Made by a program: the position numbers and the translations under genes
The notes under the pieces: generated by a model
Databases searched by the model: none
Seen by the model: the letters and a program-made list of their open reading frames with translations, nothing else
What the model was told of the DNA's origin: nothing
Part shown: in pieces, positions 1,132 to 36,929 of the stretch
How positions within the stretch are numbered: the stretch's first letter is position 1
Layout of the letters: each line of letters opens with the position of its first letter
NCBI RefSeq assembly: GCF_024464595.1
Contig: NZ_JANHAW010000002.1
Location: 124,001 to 188,000 of the forward strand
DNA length: 64,000 bases
Source of the DNA: Halobellus litoreus
GTDB taxonomy: Archaea; Halobacteriota; Halobacteria; Halobacteriales; Haloferacaceae
Reading direction: 5' to 3'

Positions 1132-1794
1132 TCATTCGTCGTTCGGTCCGTCTACGGCGGTGCCCACGGTTCCGATCCCGCGGGCGACCGCGACGAGGTA
1201 CCCCATCCCGGCCTTGACCTCGGGATCCCGCAACGCCCCGAGCAGGCCGACCGGACCGATCGGCTCGGCCTCCTCGGCGCCGGCCGCACCGACGCCCTCC
1301 AGCATCCGAACGAGCCCGCGGCGCACCTCGTCGTCGGCGGCCGTGTCGGCGATCTCGCCCATCGAGGTCCCGGTCGCGGCGACCGTCTCGACCATCTCGT
1401 CGTCCATCGCATCAGTCAGTAGCGCGACCGCGTCCGCGATCTCGGTGAGCCGGTCGAGCGTGCCGCTCCGCTGGAGCGTCGCGACGCGTTCTACGGCGTC
1501 GGCGAGGTCGTCGCCGTTCCGGCCCACGGCCGAACTGAGCTCGACCGTTTCCTCACCGGCGAGTTCCGTCGCGACCAGCCCGAGCGTCGTCGCGTCGCTC
1601 GTGAGCGACTCGACCATCTCGTCGTCAAGGCTGTCCGTCACGAGCGCAAGCGCGTCGAGAAGCGCTGACAACTGGCCAGACTGCTTCAGCAGTGCGGCGA
1701 CGGTCTCGGGGTTGTCCGCGATCGCCTCGCGGATCGCCGGCGGGACCGGCTCCGTCTCGGCGGCCGCGCCGTCTTCCTCGTCGGTCGCGCTCAT
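1132..1794 (-). CDS. DUF1641 domain protein
   Basis: This acidic helical protein of 220 residues is of the DUF1641 type found beside SQR-like and formate dehydrogenase genes. The ATG at 1794 shares one base with the upstream stop (TGATG), which suggests translational coupling; a GTG one codon earlier is less likely. Two segments are near copies: residues 45-63 and 119-137 both contain DDEMVE preceded by an ALxLxTD helix, so the fold looks like a duplicated helical unit. No cofactor motif is visible. An accessory or scaffold role for the two flanking flavoproteins is an inference. Confidence 0.85.
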   Translation of the reverse strand: MSATDEEDGAAAETEPVPPAIREAIADNPETVAALLKQSGQLSALLDALALVTDSLDDEMVESLTSDATTLGLVATELAGEETVELSSAVGRNGDDLADAVERVATLQRSGTLDRLTEIADAVALLTDAMDDEMVETVAATGTSMGEIADTAADDEVRRGLVRMLEGVGAAGAEEAEPIGPVGLLGALRDPEVKAGMGYLVAVARGIGTVGTAVDGPNDE

Positions 1795-2939
1795 CACAAC
1801 ACCCCGCGGGCAGTCAGCCAGTACGACTGGTTGTAGCCGAGCTTCGACCAGTGGATCAGCTTCGAGGGCGGCTTCGGCGTCGGCTCCGACTCGTAGTCGA
1901 AGGCGATGTAGGTCGCCTCGTCCTCGCCGCTCTCGATGAAACAGACGGTCTTGCCGTCGTACTCCGTGGTGGGGCGCTGACCGCGGACGACGCTGGCCAG
2001 CCGGTCCGCCAGCGACGTGGCCGCGTAGTGGGCCGCGCTGCCCGCCTTGCTCGTCGGGAGGTCGGCGACGTCGCCGAGGGCGTACACGTCCGCCGCGTTC
2101 GTCGCCTCCAGCGTCGCCGGGTCGACGTCGACCCAGCCGTCGTCGCCGAGTCCCGCCTCCCGGACGACGTCGCTGCCGTCGTGCGGCGGGATCGCCACCA
2201 GCAGGTCGTAGGACAGTTCCCGACCTTCGACGGTGTGGAGGACCTCCTCGTCGGGGTCGACCCGCTCGGGGTTGAAGAACGTCTCCACGCCGATGTCGCG
2301 CTCGTCCAGCAGCGGTCCGGCCCAGTCGGCGACCGACTGGATCCCGTGGGCGCGGTTGATCGGGTACGTGTACGTGATGTCGATGTCATCGCGCAGGCCC
2401 CGCTCGCGGAACCAGGTGTCCGCGATAAGCGGGAACTCCAGCGGCGCGACCGGGCACATATGCGGCACGCCGATGACCGACAGCACGAGGTGTCCCTCGG
2501 TGAACTCCGCGAGCGCCTCCCGGAGTTCCTCGGTCGCTTCGGGTCCGTAGAAGTGGTGGCCTCCCGCGGCCAGCCCCGGCGTCTCCGCCGGTGTCACTTG
2601 CGCGCCCATCGCGAGCACGAGGTGGTCGTAGGCGAGATCGGAACGCGGTCCGTCGAACGACACCGTCTTCGCGTCGGTGTCGACGGCGTTCACTCGGTCG
2701 ATCAGCAGGTCGACCCGCCGGTCGATCAGGTCCGCGAGCGGACGTTTCGCGTCCGCGGGCGTCTTCTCGCCGAAGGGCACGTACAGCCACGTCGGCTTGT
2801 ACACGTGCTCTTCGCTGTCGTTTACGAGGACCACCTCGACGTCGCCCCCGTCGATCTCGGCCGCGACCTCGTCGGCGAGGTTGTTCGCCAGGACCGACCC
2901 CGCGGTCCCCCCGCCGACGATGACGACGCGTTCAGTCAT
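1794..2939 (-). CDS. Sulfide:quinone oxidoreductase-like flavoprotein
   Basis: This 381-residue flavoprotein opens with VVIVGGGTAGS (FAD dinucleotide fold) and has a second FAD motif YALGDVADLPTSKAGS. Cys162 (in HMCPVAP) and Cys333 (in TVCFIES) match the two cysteines of the partial paralog at the left edge. The family transfers electrons from sulfide to quinone at the membrane; the C-terminal stretch (SKLIHWSKLGYNQSYW) resembles the amphipathic membrane-binding end of SQRs. It overlaps tusA by 8 bases upstream and DUF1641 by one base downstream, so these genes form an operon. The exact substrate (sulfide, polysulfide or another thiol) cannot be read from sequence. Confidence 0.88.
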   Translation of the reverse strand: MTERVVIVGGGTAGSVLANNLADEVAAEIDGGDVEVVLVNDSEEHVYKPTWLYVPFGEKTPADAKRPLADLIDRRVDLLIDRVNAVDTDAKTVSFDGPRSDLAYDHLVLAMGAQVTPAETPGLAAGGHHFYGPEATEELREALAEFTEGHLVLSVIGVPHMCPVAPLEFPLIADTWFRERGLRDDIDITYTYPINRAHGIQSVADWAGPLLDERDIGVETFFNPERVDPDEEVLHTVEGRELSYDLLVAIPPHDGSDVVREAGLGDDGWVDVDPATLEATNAADVYALGDVADLPTSKAGSAAHYAATSLADRLASVVRGQRPTTEYDGKTVCFIESGEDEATYIAFDYESEPTPKPPSKLIHWSKLGYNQSYWLTARGVL

Positions 2940-3177
2940 CGATCCGTACGTACAGGTCCCAGTGGTCGCCGCTGTCGACCACGTCGACCAGTTCGTTTCC
3001 GGACTCGTCGGCCCACTCCGCGACGTCCGGTTCGGTCCCCTCGTTCGAACTCTGAAGTCGGATCACTGTTCCCGGATCGACGTCTTTCGCCTTGCCGATC
3101 AGTTCCATCATCGGACCGGGGCAGGACGATCCGATCGCGTTCACCGTCACGTCAGCTTCGAGTTGTGTATCGCTCAT
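2932..3177 (-). CDS. tusA: TusA-family sulfur carrier protein
   Basis: The 81-residue product has the TusA signature Cys19-Pro-x-Pro (SSCPGPMMEL) near the N-terminus and the expected small beta-alpha-beta fold length. TusA proteins bind sulfane sulfur as a persulfide on this cysteine and pass it between sulfurtransferases. It is the first gene of the SQR operon and overlaps the next gene by 8 bases. With a rhodanese at 7657-8574 it supplies a plausible carrier for the sulfur released by the SQR-like enzymes. A 16-base inverted repeat lies about 50 bases upstream of the start. Confidence 0.9.
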   Translation of the reverse strand: MSDTQLEADVTVNAIGSSCPGPMMELIGKAKDVDPGTVIRLQSSNEGTEPDVAEWADESGNELVDVVDSGDHWDLYVRIDD

Positions 3178-3746: not shown

Positions 3747-5183
3747 ATGATCGACCCAGTAATCGCAAGTAGGCTCCAGTTCGCGCTAACGACTATCGTC
3801 CACATCATCTTCCCGGTGATGAGTATGGGCCTCGCTCCGTTCCTCGTTTACTTCACGTGGCGAGACGTCCGGGGCGGTGATCCAGTATACGAACAGTTAC
3901 GTCGGTTCTGGACCAAGATCTTCGCCATCTCGTTCGTGGTCGGGACCGTCACGGGGATCGTCCTGGAATTCGAGTTCGGGACGAACTTCGCGGCGTTCGC
4001 GACGGCCGCGGGCGAGCTCTTCGGCGGCCCGCTGGCCGTCGAGGGGATGATGGCGTTTATGCTCGAAGCGACGTTCCTGGGGATCTTCATCTTCGGTCGG
4101 GAACGCGTCTCCGACCGATTGTATCTCGTCTCCAGCGTCGCCGTCGGGCTCGGGACGTGGCTGTCGGCGGTGTGGATCCTCATCGCGAACTCGTGGATGC
4201 AGACGCCGCGGGGCTACGAGCTCGCCACCGAGAACGGCCAGACGATCGTCCATCTCACCGACCCGATCGCGGCGTACCTGAACCCGCGGTTCCCGTATAT
4301 GTTCGTCCATATGCAGAACGCCGCCGTCGAGTCGGTGGCGCTGTTTATGGCCGGCGTCGCCGCGTACTACGTCTACCGGCACCACGTCTGGGAGTACCCC
4401 GTCGAGAACGTCGCGTTCTGGGAGAAGACCCTCAAGATCGCGCTCGTGGCCCTGTTGATCACTGCGCCTCTCCAAGTGCTCCAGGGCGACCTCTACGCGC
4501 GTCACGTCTACGAGACACAACCCCAGAAGTTCGCCGCAATGGAGGCCGTTTGGGACACCGAGGCGTACGTCCCCGAGTACATCTTCGCGATCCCCACTGA
4601 CCTGAGCCAGCTCACCGACCCGCGCGCCAAGGAGCTGTTCGGGATCGGCATTCCCGGCGGCGCCTCGTGGCTGGCCAGCGGGGGTGATCCCACAGCCGAG
4701 ATCCGCGGGCTGAACTCCTTCGAGTCGGAGTCGCCGCCGGTCGCGATCGTGTTCTGGTCGTTCCGGGCGATGGTTGGGATGGGCTTTTGGTTCATCCTGC
4801 TGGCGTTCTGGGGCGGATACCGGTGGTTCACCGGCGAGCTGTTCGAGGACGGCCTGCTGCACAAGGCGCTTATGGCCTCCAGCCTGCTGGGGATCCTCGC
4901 GGTCGAACTCGGCTGGGTCGTCACCGAGGTCGGCAGACAGCCGTGGGTGATACAGGGCATCCTCAAGACGAGCGCGGGCGTCTCGCCCGGTCTCACCGGG
5001 ACCGAGGCCCTGACGACGCTCCTCGGATTCGTCGGGGTCTACACGGCGATCCTCGCGCTGTACACCTACGTCGTCGCGCGGATCATCCGCGGCGGGCCGC
5101 CGGGCGAGGAGGACCTGGACTCGGTCCCCGACCAGCGGGAGAGAGACGAGAGGCCAGCCGCGGGGGTCGCCGGGGATGATTAG
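3747..5183 (+). CDS. cydA: Cytochrome bd quinol oxidase subunit I
   Basis: This 478-residue multi-spanning membrane protein carries the CydA ligand set: His19 (heme b595), His188 (in FVHMQNA) and Met342 (in FRAMVGMGF) for heme b558, and the GRQPW motif at 396-400. It is shorter than E. coli CydA (about 520), mainly through a short Q loop, so it is of the short-Q-loop type. CydAB reduces oxygen to water using quinol and is typically resistant to sulfide and cyanide. The neighbouring SQR-like enzymes would feed the same quinone pool. cydB overlaps its end by 8 bases. Confidence 0.96.
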   Translation: MIDPVIASRLQFALTTIVHIIFPVMSMGLAPFLVYFTWRDVRGGDPVYEQLRRFWTKIFAISFVVGTVTGIVLEFEFGTNFAAFATAAGELFGGPLAVEGMMAFMLEATFLGIFIFGRERVSDRLYLVSSVAVGLGTWLSAVWILIANSWMQTPRGYELATENGQTIVHLTDPIAAYLNPRFPYMFVHMQNAAVESVALFMAGVAAYYVYRHHVWEYPVENVAFWEKTLKIALVALLITAPLQVLQGDLYARHVYETQPQKFAAMEAVWDTEAYVPEYIFAIPTDLSQLTDPRAKELFGIGIPGGASWLASGGDPTAEIRGLNSFESESPPVAIVFWSFRAMVGMGFWFILLAFWGGYRWFTGELFEDGLLHKALMASSLLGILAVELGWVVTEVGRQPWVIQGILKTSAGVSPGLTGTEALTTLLGFVGVYTAILALYTYVVARIIRGGPPGEEDLDSVPDQRERDERPAAGVAGDD

Positions 5184-6177
5184 CGTCGAGTCACTCGCGG
5201 CGGGACCGCTCTTGGACCTCCCGCTCGCGGAGCTGTGGTTCGCGCTGATATTCGCCCTGCTGGGGACGTTCCTGTTCCTCGACGGGTTCGACTTCGGCGC
5301 CGGCGCCATCTTCGCGACGCTCGACGACGAGTCGGCGCGCGAGACGGTGCTGTCGGCGATCGGGCCGTTCTGGGACGGCAACGAGGTCTGGCTCGTCGTC
5401 TTCGGCGGCGCGCTGTTCGCTGCCTTCCCACGAGTGTACGCCGGCCTGTTCAGTCGCCACTACCTGCTTATGTTCGGCATCCTCGGCGCGCTCATCCTCC
5501 GGGGGCTCGCCCCCGAAATGTACGAACAACGCCACGACGAGCGCTGGCAACGCTGGTGGGGACGGTCGTTCGTCGCCGGGAGCGTGCTGGCACCGTTCCT
5601 CCTCGGCGCGTTCGCGGGCAACTGGCTCGTCGGGAGCCCGCGGTCGTTCACGCTCGTCGGCATCGTCGTCGGGAGCACCGTCACGGTGCTGACCGTCGTC
5701 TCCGGGGCGGCCTTCCTGGGCCTGAAGGCCGGGAGAGCGCTCCCGGGGGCCGTGCATCGGATCGGCGTCGGCGCGGTCGTCGTGTATCTCCTCTTGGTCG
5801 TCGCGACCCTGGGAACGCTCGCCGTCACTCTCCCGGCCGGAGCCGACGCACTGCTGTCGATGCCCGTGCTCGCGTTGGTCGCGGCTTCGATCGCACTCGC
5901 GATCGCCTACGCGGTCGCGCTCCGACGGGGGGCGAACCTCGCCGCGCTCGTCTCGGCCGCGGGCTTGACCTACGGGCTGGTGGCGGTCGTCGCGGTCGTT
6001 ATGTACCCGCGTATCGACCCGGCGACGGGGCTCGTCGTCGAGGAAGCGATCGTGTCGACCCTCCCGCTGAACCTGATGTCGATCGGCGCCGCGCTGTTGC
6101 TCCCGCTGGTCGCGACGTACTTCGTCGTCCTGTACTCCGCGTTCAGCGGGCCAATCACGGCCGAGGAGTCGTACTGA
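5176..6177 (+). CDS. cydB: Cytochrome bd quinol oxidase subunit II
   Basis: The 333-residue protein is hydrophobic throughout and contains the CydB signatures FLDGFDFGAG and GPFWDGNEVWL near the N-terminus. CydB pairs with CydA to form the bd oxidase core. The start overlaps cydA by 8 bases, and a further membrane-protein gene follows with one base between them, so three genes are probably cotranscribed. Confidence 0.96.
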   Translation: MISVESLAAGPLLDLPLAELWFALIFALLGTFLFLDGFDFGAGAIFATLDDESARETVLSAIGPFWDGNEVWLVVFGGALFAAFPRVYAGLFSRHYLLMFGILGALILRGLAPEMYEQRHDERWQRWWGRSFVAGSVLAPFLLGAFAGNWLVGSPRSFTLVGIVVGSTVTVLTVVSGAAFLGLKAGRALPGAVHRIGVGAVVVYLLLVVATLGTLAVTLPAGADALLSMPVLALVAASIALAIAYAVALRRGANLAALVSAAGLTYGLVAVVAVVMYPRIDPATGLVVEEAIVSTLPLNLMSIGAALLLPLVATYFVVLYSAFSGPITAEESY

Positions 6178-6178
6178 G

Positions 6179-6425
6179 ATGGGCGGCAACGACGACCGGG
6201 ACGACGCGACCGCTGCGCCGCGAGCCGACAGCCGTCTGCTCTCGCGCGTGCTGATCACGTGGGCAGAGTTGCTCCTCGTCGGGTTCGCCGGCGCCGCGCT
6301 GGGGGGGGGCCGCGTCCGGACCACCGCAACTCATCGTCTACCTCGGAACGATCCTCGCATCGGTCGCGGTGCTCCTGTATAACGTCGATCGACTCGTCAC
6401 GACGCGGATCAGAGGCGCCTCGTGA
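6179..6425 (+). pseudogene. Small membrane protein in the cydAB operon, frameshifted in a G run
   Basis: The ATG one base after the cydB stop opens a frame with a first membrane segment (AELLLVGFAGAALGG). Nine consecutive G at 6301-6309 then throw the frame into an arginine-rich tail. If one G is removed the frame continues through a second clear membrane segment (LIVYLGTILASVAVLLY) to TGA at 6423-6425, giving about 81 residues with two helices. This is either a sequencing/assembly error in a homopolymer, phase variation, or a true inactivating mutation. Position suggests a small bd-oxidase accessory subunit, comparable in role only to CydX/CydH; no homology is claimed. Confidence 0.65.
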
Positions 6426-6543: not shown

Positions 6544-6783
6544 TCAGTTCGGTCGACGCCTCGACGGGGCGAACGGACCGACGCCGCGCCGTTTGGCGAC
6601 GATACCGAACAGCAACAGCGCGCTCGGAACGAACAAGAGCGCCCCAAGTGCGGTGACGACGTCGTCGTGGGAGAGCCCGAAGGCGACCCCGCCGATCCCG
6701 GCACCGAGCGCGACGACGGCGGGGATCAGCAGGCGGCTCCGTAGTGTCGCTAGTACCTCTTCGGCCGAAGGGGGGAATTCCAT
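6544..6783 (-). CDS. Small membrane protein, unknown function
   Basis: From the ATG at 6783 the product has 79 residues: a short charged N-terminus, two membrane segments (around VVALGAGIGGVAFGL and ALGALLFVPSALLLFGIV) and a basic tail ending RRRPN. No family is recognised. It is antisense to the cyd operon and lies just before the Bat-type regulator on the other strand. A longer upstream start is possible but would add an unlikely arginine-poor leader overlapping the regulator's promoter. Confidence 0.5.
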   Translation of the reverse strand: MEFPPSAEEVLATLRSRLLIPAVVALGAGIGGVAFGLSHDDVVTALGALLFVPSALLLFGIVAKRRGVGPFAPSRRRPN

Positions 6784-6940
6784 ACGGGACGAGATAAGTA
6801 CGTTGAACCCATATCGTCGGTGTTGTCGAGATCCAACCGCGCGGCCCGCTGTGAGACCGTTCAAACCCCCCACCCGGACGAAGACGGCCCGACCAGTCAG
6901 AGCGAACGTCACAGATTCCGATGCACGAGTTCAGTTCCTG

Positions 6941-7660
6941 ATGTACGATTTTAGCTTCCAGATAACGTACGACCCCAGCGCCGACGAGTACGTCGACCTG
7001 TTCATCGATCGCGAGTCGCTTCGATCGGAAGCGATTTACTCGTGTCTCGATCCCGGCGAACTGTGGACCCTGGAGTCGGTGACGGGTGATCCGGACGACC
7101 TCACGGCCGTCGACGAACTCCTCTTGGACGAGTCCGTCGACAGGGAGTCGATCAGCAGTCGGGAGTGCAGTGCTACGCGAACGACGAGTCTCCTGACCGA
7201 CGAGCACCGGCGGCGGGTCGCATACACCTACGTGTCCGACGTGGACTTCTGCGAAGCCGTTCCGCTCATCGTGGCGAAGTACGTCGACGGCGGCGTGCTC
7301 TTCGAGCAGACGCGGACGGGTGATACGGTTCGGTGGCGGGTACTTCTGCAGGACGACTCGAAGGTCGGACACCTGTACGATACGCTGTCTGCGAAACTCG
7401 GCGACGGCCTGTCGTTCTCTTTTGAACATCTGACGGAAGTCGATAACTGGGAGAGCGGCCTCCTCCCGCGGGCCGACATCCGTGCGGAACAGCGCGAAAT
7501 CCTGACAGTGGCCGTCGAGCGTGGCTACTTCGAGACGCCCCGCGAGGTAACGCTCGACGAACTCGCCGAAGAGCTTAACATTCCCCGCTCGACTGTGTCG
7601 TACCGGCTTCGGCGCGCGACGGCGGAGCTGGCGAAACGGTTCTCGAACCGACAACTATGA
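6941..7660 (+). CDS. Bat-type helix-turn-helix transcriptional regulator
   Basis: I chose ATG 6941, giving 239 residues; the open frame extends upstream but without coding character. The C-terminal 50-60 residues contain the bacterio-opsin-activator HTH (HTH_10) with TLDELAEELNIPRSTVSYRL as the recognition region. The N-terminal ~170 residues form a haloarchaeal sensor-type domain without recognisable ligand motif. The stop overlaps the rhodanese start by four bases (ATGA), so it probably regulates or is co-regulated with sulfur transfer. Confidence 0.85.
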   Translation: MYDFSFQITYDPSADEYVDLFIDRESLRSEAIYSCLDPGELWTLESVTGDPDDLTAVDELLLDESVDRESISSRECSATRTTSLLTDEHRRRVAYTYVSDVDFCEAVPLIVAKYVDGGVLFEQTRTGDTVRWRVLLQDDSKVGHLYDTLSAKLGDGLSFSFEHLTEVDNWESGLLPRADIRAEQREILTVAVERGYFETPREVTLDELAEELNIPRSTVSYRLRRATAELAKRFSNRQL

Positions 7661-8574
7661 CTGCCGATGACTCCCCGGATGCCGGGACACGGCCGGAACC
7701 CGACGAACCGCTCGAGTCACAGTACCCCACAGACGTCCTCGTTAGCCCCGAGTGGGTCGAATCCCGACTCGACCGGTTCGACTCCGCGGAAACCGACGCC
7801 AGGTTGCTCGAGGTCGACGTCAACACTGAATTCTACGAGACCGGTCACGCTCCCGGTGCCGTCTGCGTCGACTGGCAGGAGGACCTCCGCTCGGCAGACG
7901 CTCACGACATTCTCGGCCCGCAAGAAATGGAGTCGTTCCTGGGTGCCTGTGGGATCACCGAAGAGACGACGGTCGTCGTCTACGGCGACAACTCGAACTG
8001 GTTCGCGACCCATCTCTACTGGCAACTCACCTACTACGGCCACCCGGATGTCCGGGTTATGGACGGGGGCCGCGAATACTGGGTCGAACACGACTACCCG
8101 CTCTCGACAGCCCCGGTCGATCCCCCGACTGTCGCGTACGGGAAGACGCTCGATCACCCGGCCGAGGAGGTGCGAGCCTACCGTGAGGACGTGCGTGACG
8201 CGCTCGACACCGAGACGGTCCTCGTCGACGTGCGCCTCCCCGAGGAGTTCCGCGGCGAGATCGTGAAGCCGCCGGGAATCGACGAGGGCGCCGTCCGCGG
8301 AGGGCACGTCCCTGGCGCAACGAACGTCTTCTGGGCCGAGAACGTCCGTCCGGACGGCCGGTTCAAATCACCGGATCGGCTCCGCGCCGTCTACGAGTCG
8401 CGGGGGATCACGCCCGACGACGACATCATCGTCTACTGTCGGATCGGCGAGCGGTCGTCCGTGACGTGGTTCGTCCTCGCGGAACTACTCGGGTACGATC
8501 GCGTCCGGAATTACGACGGCTCCTGGACTGAGTGGGGGAATATGATCGGCGTCCCGATCGAAAACGGAGAATGA
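7657..8574 (+). CDS. Two-domain rhodanese (thiosulfate/mercaptopyruvate sulfurtransferase)
   Basis: This 305-residue protein has tandem rhodanese domains. The second contains the active-site loop CRIGERSS with Cys261, the CRxGE form typical of thiosulfate sulfurtransferases; the equivalent loop of the first domain (YGDNSN) has Asp in place of Cys and is inactive, as usual in this family. It moves sulfane sulfur from thiosulfate or persulfides to acceptors such as cyanide, thiols or TusA. The start overlaps the preceding regulator by four bases. With TusA and two SQR-like enzymes nearby it completes a sulfane-sulfur handling set. Confidence 0.92.
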   Translation: MTADDSPDAGTRPEPDEPLESQYPTDVLVSPEWVESRLDRFDSAETDARLLEVDVNTEFYETGHAPGAVCVDWQEDLRSADAHDILGPQEMESFLGACGITEETTVVVYGDNSNWFATHLYWQLTYYGHPDVRVMDGGREYWVEHDYPLSTAPVDPPTVAYGKTLDHPAEEVRAYREDVRDALDTETVLVDVRLPEEFRGEIVKPPGIDEGAVRGGHVPGATNVFWAENVRPDGRFKSPDRLRAVYESRGITPDDDIIVYCRIGERSSVTWFVLAELLGYDRVRNYDGSWTEWGNMIGVPIENGE

Positions 8575-19465: not shown

Positions 19466-19511
19466 GCGTCGGCGTTCGTTTCGCGGCGACGGGTCGGTGG
19501 CGCCGGGCCGC

Positions 19512-33640: not shown

Positions 33641-35734
33641 ATGGGAGAGTTATCTCCGTTGTTTGCGCCCGAACGCATCGCCGTCGTGGGCGCGACGGAC
33701 CGAGAGGGGTCGGTCGGCAGAGCGATTATGGAGAACCTCCTCGACGCGTTCGTGGGCGAGGTCGTCCCCGTGAACCCGGGACGAGAGGAGGTCTTCGGAC
33801 TGCCGACGCTCGACAGCGTCGCCGACTCCGAGGCCGACCTCGCCGTGGTGGTCGTCCCACCGACGGTCGCTGTCGACGTTGTCCGCCAGGCGGGCGAGGC
33901 CGGCATCACGAACGTCGTGGTCATCACCGCCGGATTCGGCGAGACGGGCACCGAGGGCGCGACCCGGGAAGAAGAGTTGACGGCGGTCGCCGAGGCCTAC
34001 GACATCGACCTAGTCGGACCGAACAGCCTCGGAATCATGTCGACACCGGTCGGGATGAACGCCTCGTTCGGCCCCGAGAACGCCACCTCGGGTCGGATGT
34101 CGTTCATGAGCCAGTCGGGCGCGTTCATTACGGCCGTGCTGGACTGGGCGAACGACCAAGGAATCGGGTTCAAAGACATCGTGTCGCTTGGTAACAAGGC
34201 TGTCCTCGACGAGTCCGACTTCGTTCGGGAGTGGGGCGACGACGATGAGACTGACGTCATCATCGGGTATCTGGAAGGCATCGACGACGGACAGGCGTTC
34301 ATCGAGACAGCGAGAGCAGTCACACGGGAGACGCCGATCGTTCTCGTGAAGTCCGGCCGCACCGACGCCGGCGCGCAGGCCGCCTCCAGCCACACGGGCA
34401 CCATCGCGGGGTCGGATCAGGCCTACGAGGCGGGCTTAGAGCAGGCTGGCGTCATCCGCGCGGAGTCCGTCCAGGAACTGTTCGACGCCGCGCGCGTCCT
34501 GGAGAGCCAGCCGCTCCCGGAGACCGACGGCGTCGCGGTCATCACGAACGCCGGTGGCCCCGGCGTGATGAGCACCGACTCCATCGGCGATTCGCGGCTC
34601 TCGATGGCCTCCTTCTCCGAGGAGACGCTCGACGCGTTCTCCGAGGCGCTGCCCGCGGAGGGGAACATCTACAACCCGGTCGACGTCGTCGGCGACGCCG
34701 ACAACGAGCGGTTCCGCGACGCGCTCGACGTGGCGCTGGAAGACGAGAACGTCGGCAGCGCGATGGTGTTGGCGTGCCCGACGGCGGTGCTCGACTACGA
34801 GGAGTTGGCGGCGGACACGGTGGCGATGCAGGCGAAACACGAGAAACCGGTAGCGGCCTGTTTCATGGGCGGTGCGCGAGTCAAACCCGCCGCTGAGACG
34901 CTGTCGGAGGCGGGCATCCCGAACTACTTCGATCCCGCGCGGGCGGTCGCAGGCCTCGACGCGCTCTCGCGCTTTCGCGACATCAGCGAGCGCGAGTACC
35001 AAGAGCCGACGACCTTCGACGTCGACCGCGACCGCGCCCGGGAGATCCTGTCGGCCGTCGAGGGACGGACGGACACGCGTCTGGGCGTCGAGGCGATGGG
35101 GCTGCTCGACGCCTACGGGATCCCGACGCCCGACGGCGACATCGTCGACTCGCCGGCTGACGCCCTCGACGTCGCCGAGCGGATCGACGGCGACGTCGTG
35201 ATGAAGATCGTGAGTCCGGACATCCTGCACAAGTCCGACATCGGCGGCGTGAAAGTGGGCGTCGCCGACGAGGACGTCGAAGACGCCTACGAGGACCTCG
35301 TCTCCCGCGCCCGCAACTACCAACCGGACGCGATGATCATCGGCGTGCAGGTGCAGGAGATGGTCGATCTCGACCGCGGCGTCGAGACCATCGTGGGGAT
35401 GAACCGCGACCCGCAGTTCGGCCCGCTGCTTCTCTTCGGGCTCGGCGGCATCTTCGTCGAGACGCTCGAAGACACGACGTTCCGCGTCGCTCCCGTCTCC
35501 GAGCACGAGGCCGAGTCGATGACCCGAGAGATCGACGCCGCACCCCTGCTTCGGGGGGCTCGCGGCCGCGACCCCACCGATGTCGAGGGGGTAGTCGAGA
35601 CGATCCAACGCCTCTCCCAACTCGTGACGGACTTCCCGGCGATACTCGAACTGGACATCAACCCCCTCGTCGCCACGCCCGACGGCGTCGAGGCCGTCGA
35701 CGTGCGACTCACCGTCGATCCCGACGAACTATAG
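33641..35734 (+). CDS. acd: ADP-forming acetate/acyl-CoA synthetase, fused alpha-beta
   Basis: From ATG 33641 the protein has 697 residues: a CoA-binding Rossmann domain (VVGATDREGSVGRAI), a succinyl-CoA-synthetase-like region with phosphohistidine His251 in SSHTGTIAGSDQAYE, and a C-terminal ATP-grasp domain (KIVSPDILHKSDIGGVKVG). It converts acyl-CoA, ADP and phosphate to acid, ATP and CoA, the main energy-conserving acetate-forming enzyme of haloarchaea. The phosphotransacetylase-like gene follows after ten bases. Confidence 0.94.
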   Translation: MGELSPLFAPERIAVVGATDREGSVGRAIMENLLDAFVGEVVPVNPGREEVFGLPTLDSVADSEADLAVVVVPPTVAVDVVRQAGEAGITNVVVITAGFGETGTEGATREEELTAVAEAYDIDLVGPNSLGIMSTPVGMNASFGPENATSGRMSFMSQSGAFITAVLDWANDQGIGFKDIVSLGNKAVLDESDFVREWGDDDETDVIIGYLEGIDDGQAFIETARAVTRETPIVLVKSGRTDAGAQAASSHTGTIAGSDQAYEAGLEQAGVIRAESVQELFDAARVLESQPLPETDGVAVITNAGGPGVMSTDSIGDSRLSMASFSEETLDAFSEALPAEGNIYNPVDVVGDADNERFRDALDVALEDENVGSAMVLACPTAVLDYEELAADTVAMQAKHEKPVAACFMGGARVKPAAETLSEAGIPNYFDPARAVAGLDALSRFRDISEREYQEPTTFDVDRDRAREILSAVEGRTDTRLGVEAMGLLDAYGIPTPDGDIVDSPADALDVAERIDGDVVMKIVSPDILHKSDIGGVKVGVADEDVEDAYEDLVSRARNYQPDAMIIGVQVQEMVDLDRGVETIVGMNRDPQFGPLLLFGLGGIFVETLEDTTFRVAPVSEHEAESMTREIDAAPLLRGARGRDPTDVEGVVETIQRLSQLVTDFPAILELDINPLVATPDGVEAVDVRLTVDPDEL

Positions 35735-35744
35735 AGAGCCCACA

Positions 35745-36929
35745 ATGCACACGAACACCCTACTCGTCACCTCGATCACCGAAAGCACCGGCAAAACGGC
35801 AGTCACGCTCGCGCTCGGCGGCCTCGCACAGGAACGCGGCCTCACCGTGGGCTACATGAAGCCCAAGGGGACGCGGCTCCAATCGAACGTCGGCAAGACG
35901 CTCGACGAGGACCCGATGCTCGCGCGCGAACTCCTGGGACTGGACAGCGAGATGCACCAGATGGAGCCGATCGTCTACTCGCCGACGTTCGTCGACGGCG
36001 TGGTCCGCGGACAGGAGGATCCCGACGAACTCGGCGGGATCGTCGAGGAGTACTTCGCCGAGCTCGCGGCCGACACGGACTTGATGCTGATCGAAGGCGG
36101 CGGCTCCTGGACCACCGGCGGGATCGTCGACCTCACCGACGTCGACATCGCCGACCGTCTCGACGCGAACGTCCTGCTCGTGGCCGACTACGAGCAATCG
36201 CGGGACCTCGACGACATCGTCGTCGCCGCCGAGTCGTTCGGCGACCGCCTCGCCGGCGTGCTGTTCAACGGCGTGACCGACGCCGCCTTCGACGACCTCG
36301 AACAGGAGGCCGTGCCGTTCCTCGAAAGTCGCGGCGTGCCGGTCCTCGGCGTCGTCCCGCGCGAACGCGAACTCGCGGGCGTCCGCGTCGACGACCTCGC
36401 CGACGAACTGGGCGCGAAAGCCGTCACCGAGGGCGACACCGAGGCTTACGTCGAGCGGTTCCTCGTCGGAGCGATGGGCGGCGACGCGGCGCTGCAGTAC
36501 TTCAGGCGGACGAAGAACGCCGCGGTCATCACCGGCGGCGACCGCTCTGAGATCATCGCCGCCGCACTGGAAGCGCCCGGGGTCAACGCCATCATCCTCA
36601 CCGGCGGCCACCGGCCGACCCAGGCGGTGCTCGGGCAGGCCGAACAGAAGGGCGTTCCCGTGCTCTTGGCCACTGGTGACACCCTCTCGGTCGTCGACCG
36701 CGCGGAAGCGGTGGTCAACACCGGTCGGGCCCGCGACGAGGAGACGATCGCACGGATGCGCGAACTCCTCCACGACCACGCGGACGTCGACGCGCTTCTC
36801 GGGGACGAAACGGCCGAGAACGGATCCGATGACGCGGCCGGCGACGAGGCGGCCGCCGGTGAAGAAGGCGGCTCAGACACGGACGGCGCAACCGGAGACG
36901 CCGGCGACGGCGAGCGCGACGCGCAGTGA
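35745..36929 (+). CDS. Phosphotransacetylase-like BioD/DRTGG protein
   Basis: The 394-residue protein starts with a dethiobiotin-synthetase-like P-loop domain (LLVTSITESTGKTAVTLAL, residues ~6-24) and has a DRTGG-type domain at ~215-340 (AVITGGDRSEIIAAAL). It lacks the catalytic phosphotransacetylase domain, so it is the regulatory half of bacterial Pta standing alone. The last ~45 residues are a disordered Ala/Asp/Glu tail. Pairing with acd suggests control of acetate or acyl-CoA flux. Confidence 0.88.
   Translation: MHTNTLLVTSITESTGKTAVTLALGGLAQERGLTVGYMKPKGTRLQSNVGKTLDEDPMLARELLGLDSEMHQMEPIVYSPTFVDGVVRGQEDPDELGGIVEEYFAELAADTDLMLIEGGGSWTTGGIVDLTDVDIADRLDANVLLVADYEQSRDLDDIVVAAESFGDRLAGVLFNGVTDAAFDDLEQEAVPFLESRGVPVLGVVPRERELAGVRVDDLADELGAKAVTEGDTEAYVERFLVGAMGGDAALQYFRRTKNAAVITGGDRSEIIAAALEAPGVNAIILTGGHRPTQAVLGQAEQKGVPVLLATGDTLSVVDRAEAVVNTGRARDEETIARMRELLHDHADVDALLGDETAENGSDDAAGDEAAAGEEGGSDTDGATGDAGDGERDAQ

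Follow-up and report, generated by a model that had tools for sequence, protein, structure and literature searches.

The cyd operon of Halobellus litoreus raises the question of whether the short open reading frame (ORF) that follows cydB is the damaged part of a third gene and, if it is, what this gene encodes and how the break in it should be understood. The operon lies in a stretch of 64,000 nucleotides, which we call the window. A reading made from the sequence alone had proposed that the third gene of the operon is interrupted in a run of nine G, and that removal of one G restores a two-helix protein of about 81 residues starting one base after cydB. Both proposals are borne out. The run is present, and the ORF, whose ATG lies one base past the cydB stop codon, is out of frame beyond it; if one base of the run is skipped, the result is an ORF of 81 amino acids, the product of which has two hydrophobic stretches. 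The ORF as sequenced retains the first helix and has a hydrophilic tail in place of the second, and the run would delete the second helix of the gene product in H. litoreus.

Table 1. Features of the cyd region, in positions of the window
Feature	Positions	Strand	Basis
cydA, cytochrome bd oxidase subunit I, intact	3747..5183	+	Pfam PF01654, E 2.7e-146
cydB, cytochrome bd oxidase subunit II, intact	5176..6177	+	Pfam PF02322, E 3.4e-67
Third gene, frame broken; read-through gives an 81-aa protein with two predicted membrane helices, member of a haloarchaeal family that has no name	6179..6425	+	profile, loci, fold model
Nine-G run, site of the frame break	6301..6309	+	sequence
ORF as sequenced, 67 aa	6179..6382	+	ORF list
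Second small two-helix protein, 79 aa, convergent with the third gene	6544..6783	-	homologues tend to adjoin cydB; no Pfam family

Runs of nine G or nine C are rare in this genome: there are two in 3.86 Mb, the one considered here, which is also the longest such run in the window, and another that lies between two minus-strand ORFs. Furthermore, the two halves of the ORF match the profile of the family, in two different frames, with E-values of 3.4e-17 and 9.0e-12 (the profile has 18 rows, one of them being the window's own read-through). For these two reasons, the interruption of the frame at this run is more than a chance arrangement of letters.

The cydB gene of the window is the sole cydB match found by a search of its own genome, and the operon lies within a cluster of sulfur genes (1794-3177 on the minus strand and 6941-8574 on the plus strand). 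The cluster comprises a Pyr_redox_2 protein, which by our reading is sulfide:quinone reductase-like, together with TusA, a regulator with an HTH of the HVO_2928 type and a two-domain rhodanese. On a plasmid of Halobaculum roseum, genes for TusA, DsrE and YeeE adjoin the cyd operon. A scan of the locus for promoters and terminators, built for bacterial promoters and here applied to an archaeal host, returned nothing.

How widespread is the third gene? A search of the window's own genome and 59 relatives, i.e. 60 genomes, identified nine relatives with a strong match (E at most 1.2e-12); the remaining listed matches, at E 0.02 or worse, were taken as chance. A scan of named genomes gave at least eight loci, seven in Halorubrum and one in Haloarchaeobius. 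When the 18-row profile was run against 391 genomes of the class, 89 of them, including that of the window, had a match at E 0.01, roughly one in five of the sampled haloarchaeal genomes; cydB was found in 224 of the same 391. A sample of 392 genomes from the phylum contained ten with a match, the window's included, all from one order. From the 98 rows obtained with the profile we removed three weak ones (G403:C62, G304:C1 and G315) and the two that are halves of the gene in the window, which left 93 strong places outside the window's genome (E 4.1e-10 or better). All 93 lie downstream of a cydB or a cydB remnant, on the same strand. For 74 of them a cydB among the best 150 or so cydB places is found within 1 kb; for the other 19 the downstream placement was checked on the loci themselves, three of which are degraded or rearranged. 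In G160:C103 the third gene is broken in two frames and lies about 1.1 kb after a divergent cydB, in G321 a broken cyd operon is accompanied by a broken or partial third gene, and in G274 there are remnants of both cydB and the third gene. Two other loci have an unusual cydB: in G002:C81 it has an internal TAG and a frame break and is followed by an intact third gene, and in G348:C1 it is contained in an open frame of 830 codons, which could be a cydA-cydB fusion or merely a long open frame in GC-rich DNA.

The converse approach started from cydB. The third gene is present in 83 and absent from 91 of the 174 cydB loci that were fetched, a set that contains some places twice. It is a part of the places obtained in the searches with cydB and with the profile, and it includes all 76 gene-less places among the best 150 or so, and part of the 74 with the gene. 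Thus the oxidase can do without the third gene, at least in other lineages. Where present, the gene is full length and in a single frame in every case (83 of 83), and its start lies between -14 and +5 nucleotides from the cydB stop codon in 80 loci and at +73 to +93 in the other three. The earlier reading had also envisaged that no relative might have an intact homologue downstream of cydB; this is contradicted by the placement of all 93 matches and the integrity of all 83 genes. On a tree of the 155 distinct CydB proteins (a quick tree, with SH-aLRT support only), presence or absence of the third gene requires 8 changes as against about 51 in shuffles. The smallest well-supported clade that holds the window's CydB has 22 members, all with the third gene, and their hosts belong to families f1, f4 and f7; from this distribution it thus seems that cydA, cydB and the third gene move jointly. 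Remnants of the third gene were sought in twelve cydB loci devoid of it, and none was convincing. By the measure of sequence conservation and gene order, the third gene is a real gene, and a dedication of the family to cyd is well supported.

Apart from the start Met, seven residues (S22, R23, W28, G38, G47, V62 and N68) do not vary among the 58 members of the family that were compared, and 55 of the 58 share E30, which lies in the first helix. The AlphaFold model of the protein, of modest confidence (mean pLDDT 68.4), is a helical hairpin with helices at 16-46 and 50-80. From the sequence we infer a membrane hairpin for the third protein; both of its ends would be cytoplasmic and E30 would be placed within the membrane. 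The restored protein matched no family in Pfam or NCBIfam, the 58 members had weak and scattered matches to 17 Pfam and 13 NCBIfam families, none of them the CydX or the DUF2474 model, and the search of solved structures with the family profile gave a best E-value of 0.23. As to the deposited annotation, 14 plasmid records contain a match: nine copies go by the name ‘hypothetical protein’ and one by ‘Rab5-interacting family protein’, no feature is listed for three, and the remaining record is unannotated. The basis of the ‘Rab5-interacting’ name is weak: there is no clear match to PF07019 (EMC6), the hits being limited to 9 of the 58 members (best E 0.012).

Small subunits of bd oxidases have been described in bacteria. 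CydX and CydS are reported to be required for assembly and stability of these enzymes, and CydH/CydY to block a putative oxygen access (PMC8951039). Like CydX, AppX and CydS, the haloarchaeal protein is tiny, hydrophobic, tied to bd oxidase and present in some bd operons only, and like CydX it is encoded together with cydAB, in most cases at or across the cydB stop codon. However, CydX is described as a single helix (PMC8951039), as opposed to two hydrophobic helices here, and none of the 58 members matches the CydX-type Pfam model. The CydX of E. coli has 37 amino acids, and the survey that covers it, limited to bacteria, lists Proteobacteria and two Leptospirillum species (PMC4325964). CydH/CydY (YnhF) is also a small hydrophobic extra subunit, but it has one helix, and its gene is not part of the cyd operon (PMC8951039). 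A further parallel is with the two-helix CydX-like proteins reported to follow cydB in some bacteria: those of angustum and S. hydrothermalis are described as having 77 residues and two predicted helices, and as being encoded immediately 3′ of cydB, although their hosts are bacterial and the likeness is one of description only (PMC5322542). As for archaea, a study of protein modules reports cydA, cydB and three other cytochrome-related families in Halobacteria, with no such small protein in the section concerned (PMC9258230), and the literature searched, mostly at the level of titles and abstract openings and with little subscription literature, listed no account of a small bd subunit in archaea. 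By its place, size and exclusive association, the third protein fits a role like that of CydX; we say that it may act in the manner of CydX, but we do not place it in that family, because it has no more than weak, scattered matches to Pfam and NCBIfam models and matches no solved structure.

The view that we hold as probable is that the third cyd gene is conserved and is present in H. litoreus as a frameshifted copy; its product is most likely a two-helix accessory subunit and less likely an assembly factor. A cydA-cydB-third gene operon would yield a two-helix membrane protein with its start at, or overlapping, the cydB stop codon; this protein would pack against CydA/CydB and stabilise the complex, as CydX does. 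We infer both its presence in the oxidase complex and the effect of the break. Some observations weigh against this view: more than half of the fetched cydB loci are without the gene, the fold model is of modest confidence, and gene order alone can mislead. The last point is illustrated by a two-helix ORF of 67 amino acids that follows cydB in four congeners (G002, G003, G006 and G014) and that we rejected as a substitute subunit; all 17 genomes of the genus have it, with or without cydB, and it is hence a chance neighbour. An assembly factor, i.e. a protein that delivers heme or quinone and has no part in the finished enzyme, would fit the genomic evidence equally, and the absence of the gene from some haloarchaeal cyd operons would agree with it. 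However, a start coupled to the preceding stop codon is typical of subunits, and no known assembly-factor family of Pfam or NCBIfam was matched by the 58 members, so that we consider this role rather unlikely. A more speculative proposal, to which we would give no greater weight, is that haloarchaeal bd oxidase has its own set of small subunits, in which the third gene and a second two-helix protein replace CydX and CydH by unrelated sequences, the organism then being a natural mutant without one of them. The 79-amino-acid protein of Table 1 is a possible second small protein linked to cyd. Among its relatives is the 68-amino-acid ORF that genus g43 has a short way past cydB in 13 of 15 genomes (BLASTP E 5e-5). 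A search across the class gave 81 rows, of which 71 were kept after removal of its own row and nine with E 1e-4 or worse; in 50 of these 71 a listed cydB or third gene is no more than 3 kb away, in either orientation. Most of the weaker matches lie elsewhere, and the link to cydB is therefore partial. Homology between the two small proteins was rejected (hhalign probability 5.7).

How did the frame come to be broken? Comparison with 11 relatives shows that, when the restored frame is applied, most changes 3′ of the run fall on third codon positions, with dN/dS values of 0.10-0.35 as against 0.14-0.25 for cydB. Judged from these substitutions, the restored frame past the run is under purifying selection like that on cydB, so that the break either arose long after these relatives diverged from the lineage of H. 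litoreus or is not real. Either a private mutation of very recent date or an error in the assembly would account for it, and we regard the two as about equally likely, each falling a little short of an even chance. An error of sequencing or assembly, with the gene intact in the organism, is favoured by the length and rarity of the run, by the lack of visible decay past it and by the fact that every third gene of the fetched loci is in frame. The assembly is not generally rich in indels, which speaks against an error: over 25,030 bases aligned with the congener G007 there are six net frame-changing clusters, of which the G run alone consists of a single base within a clear gene. The clusters at 6860-6906 and 35731-35745 are intergenic, as judged by eye from the ORF list, and those at 19477, 21630 and 23329 are multi-gap. 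A generally poor assembly is thus not supported, but homopolymers of nine are sampled in this comparison at this one site only. A real, recent and private loss of function through slippage would be favoured by the site itself, which is G-rich through its own codons (Leu-Gly-Gly-Ala). Broken or partial copies exist in G160, G321 and G274, and the absence of the gene from related cydB loci suggests that loss is possible; however, those three loci are degraded or rearranged, whereas cydA and cydB of the window are intact. The sequence-only reading had named sequencing error and recent loss, and it stands in so far as the break must be recent or not real; the 3′ constraint does not choose between them.

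The same reading had also raised phase variation. G runs of about nine can slip, and a run of this length could act as a phase-variable switch, or expression could be rescued by slippage on it. However, 17 homologues have no G tract at the site, the longest G run in the segments examined being 3 to 6 (one segment, L002, was anchored on another TW and is hence offset). The run is thus private, which makes phase variation unlikely, and, the third genes of all fetched loci being in a single frame, we see little room for either form of this idea. As a conserved feature, a contingency locus was rejected, the repeat tract not being kept in these 17 homologues.

According to the earlier suggestion, the gene, if intact elsewhere, may encode a small bd-oxidase subunit so far unrecognised; as far as a cyd-dedicated family is concerned, these comparisons support it well. 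We find this unnamed family to be of moderate interest and the frameshift itself of small interest. In bacteria, accessory subunits determine how stable bd oxidases are, how oxygen reaches them and how they handle quinone. From its sequences and loci the third-gene family looks like an overlooked helper subunit of bd oxidase, nameless in the databases searched. Its recognition would put an end to the filing of the gene as ‘hypothetical’ or ‘Rab5-interacting’, and a third subunit in about one-fifth of the sampled haloarchaea (89 of 391) would guide purification and structure work on the enzyme.
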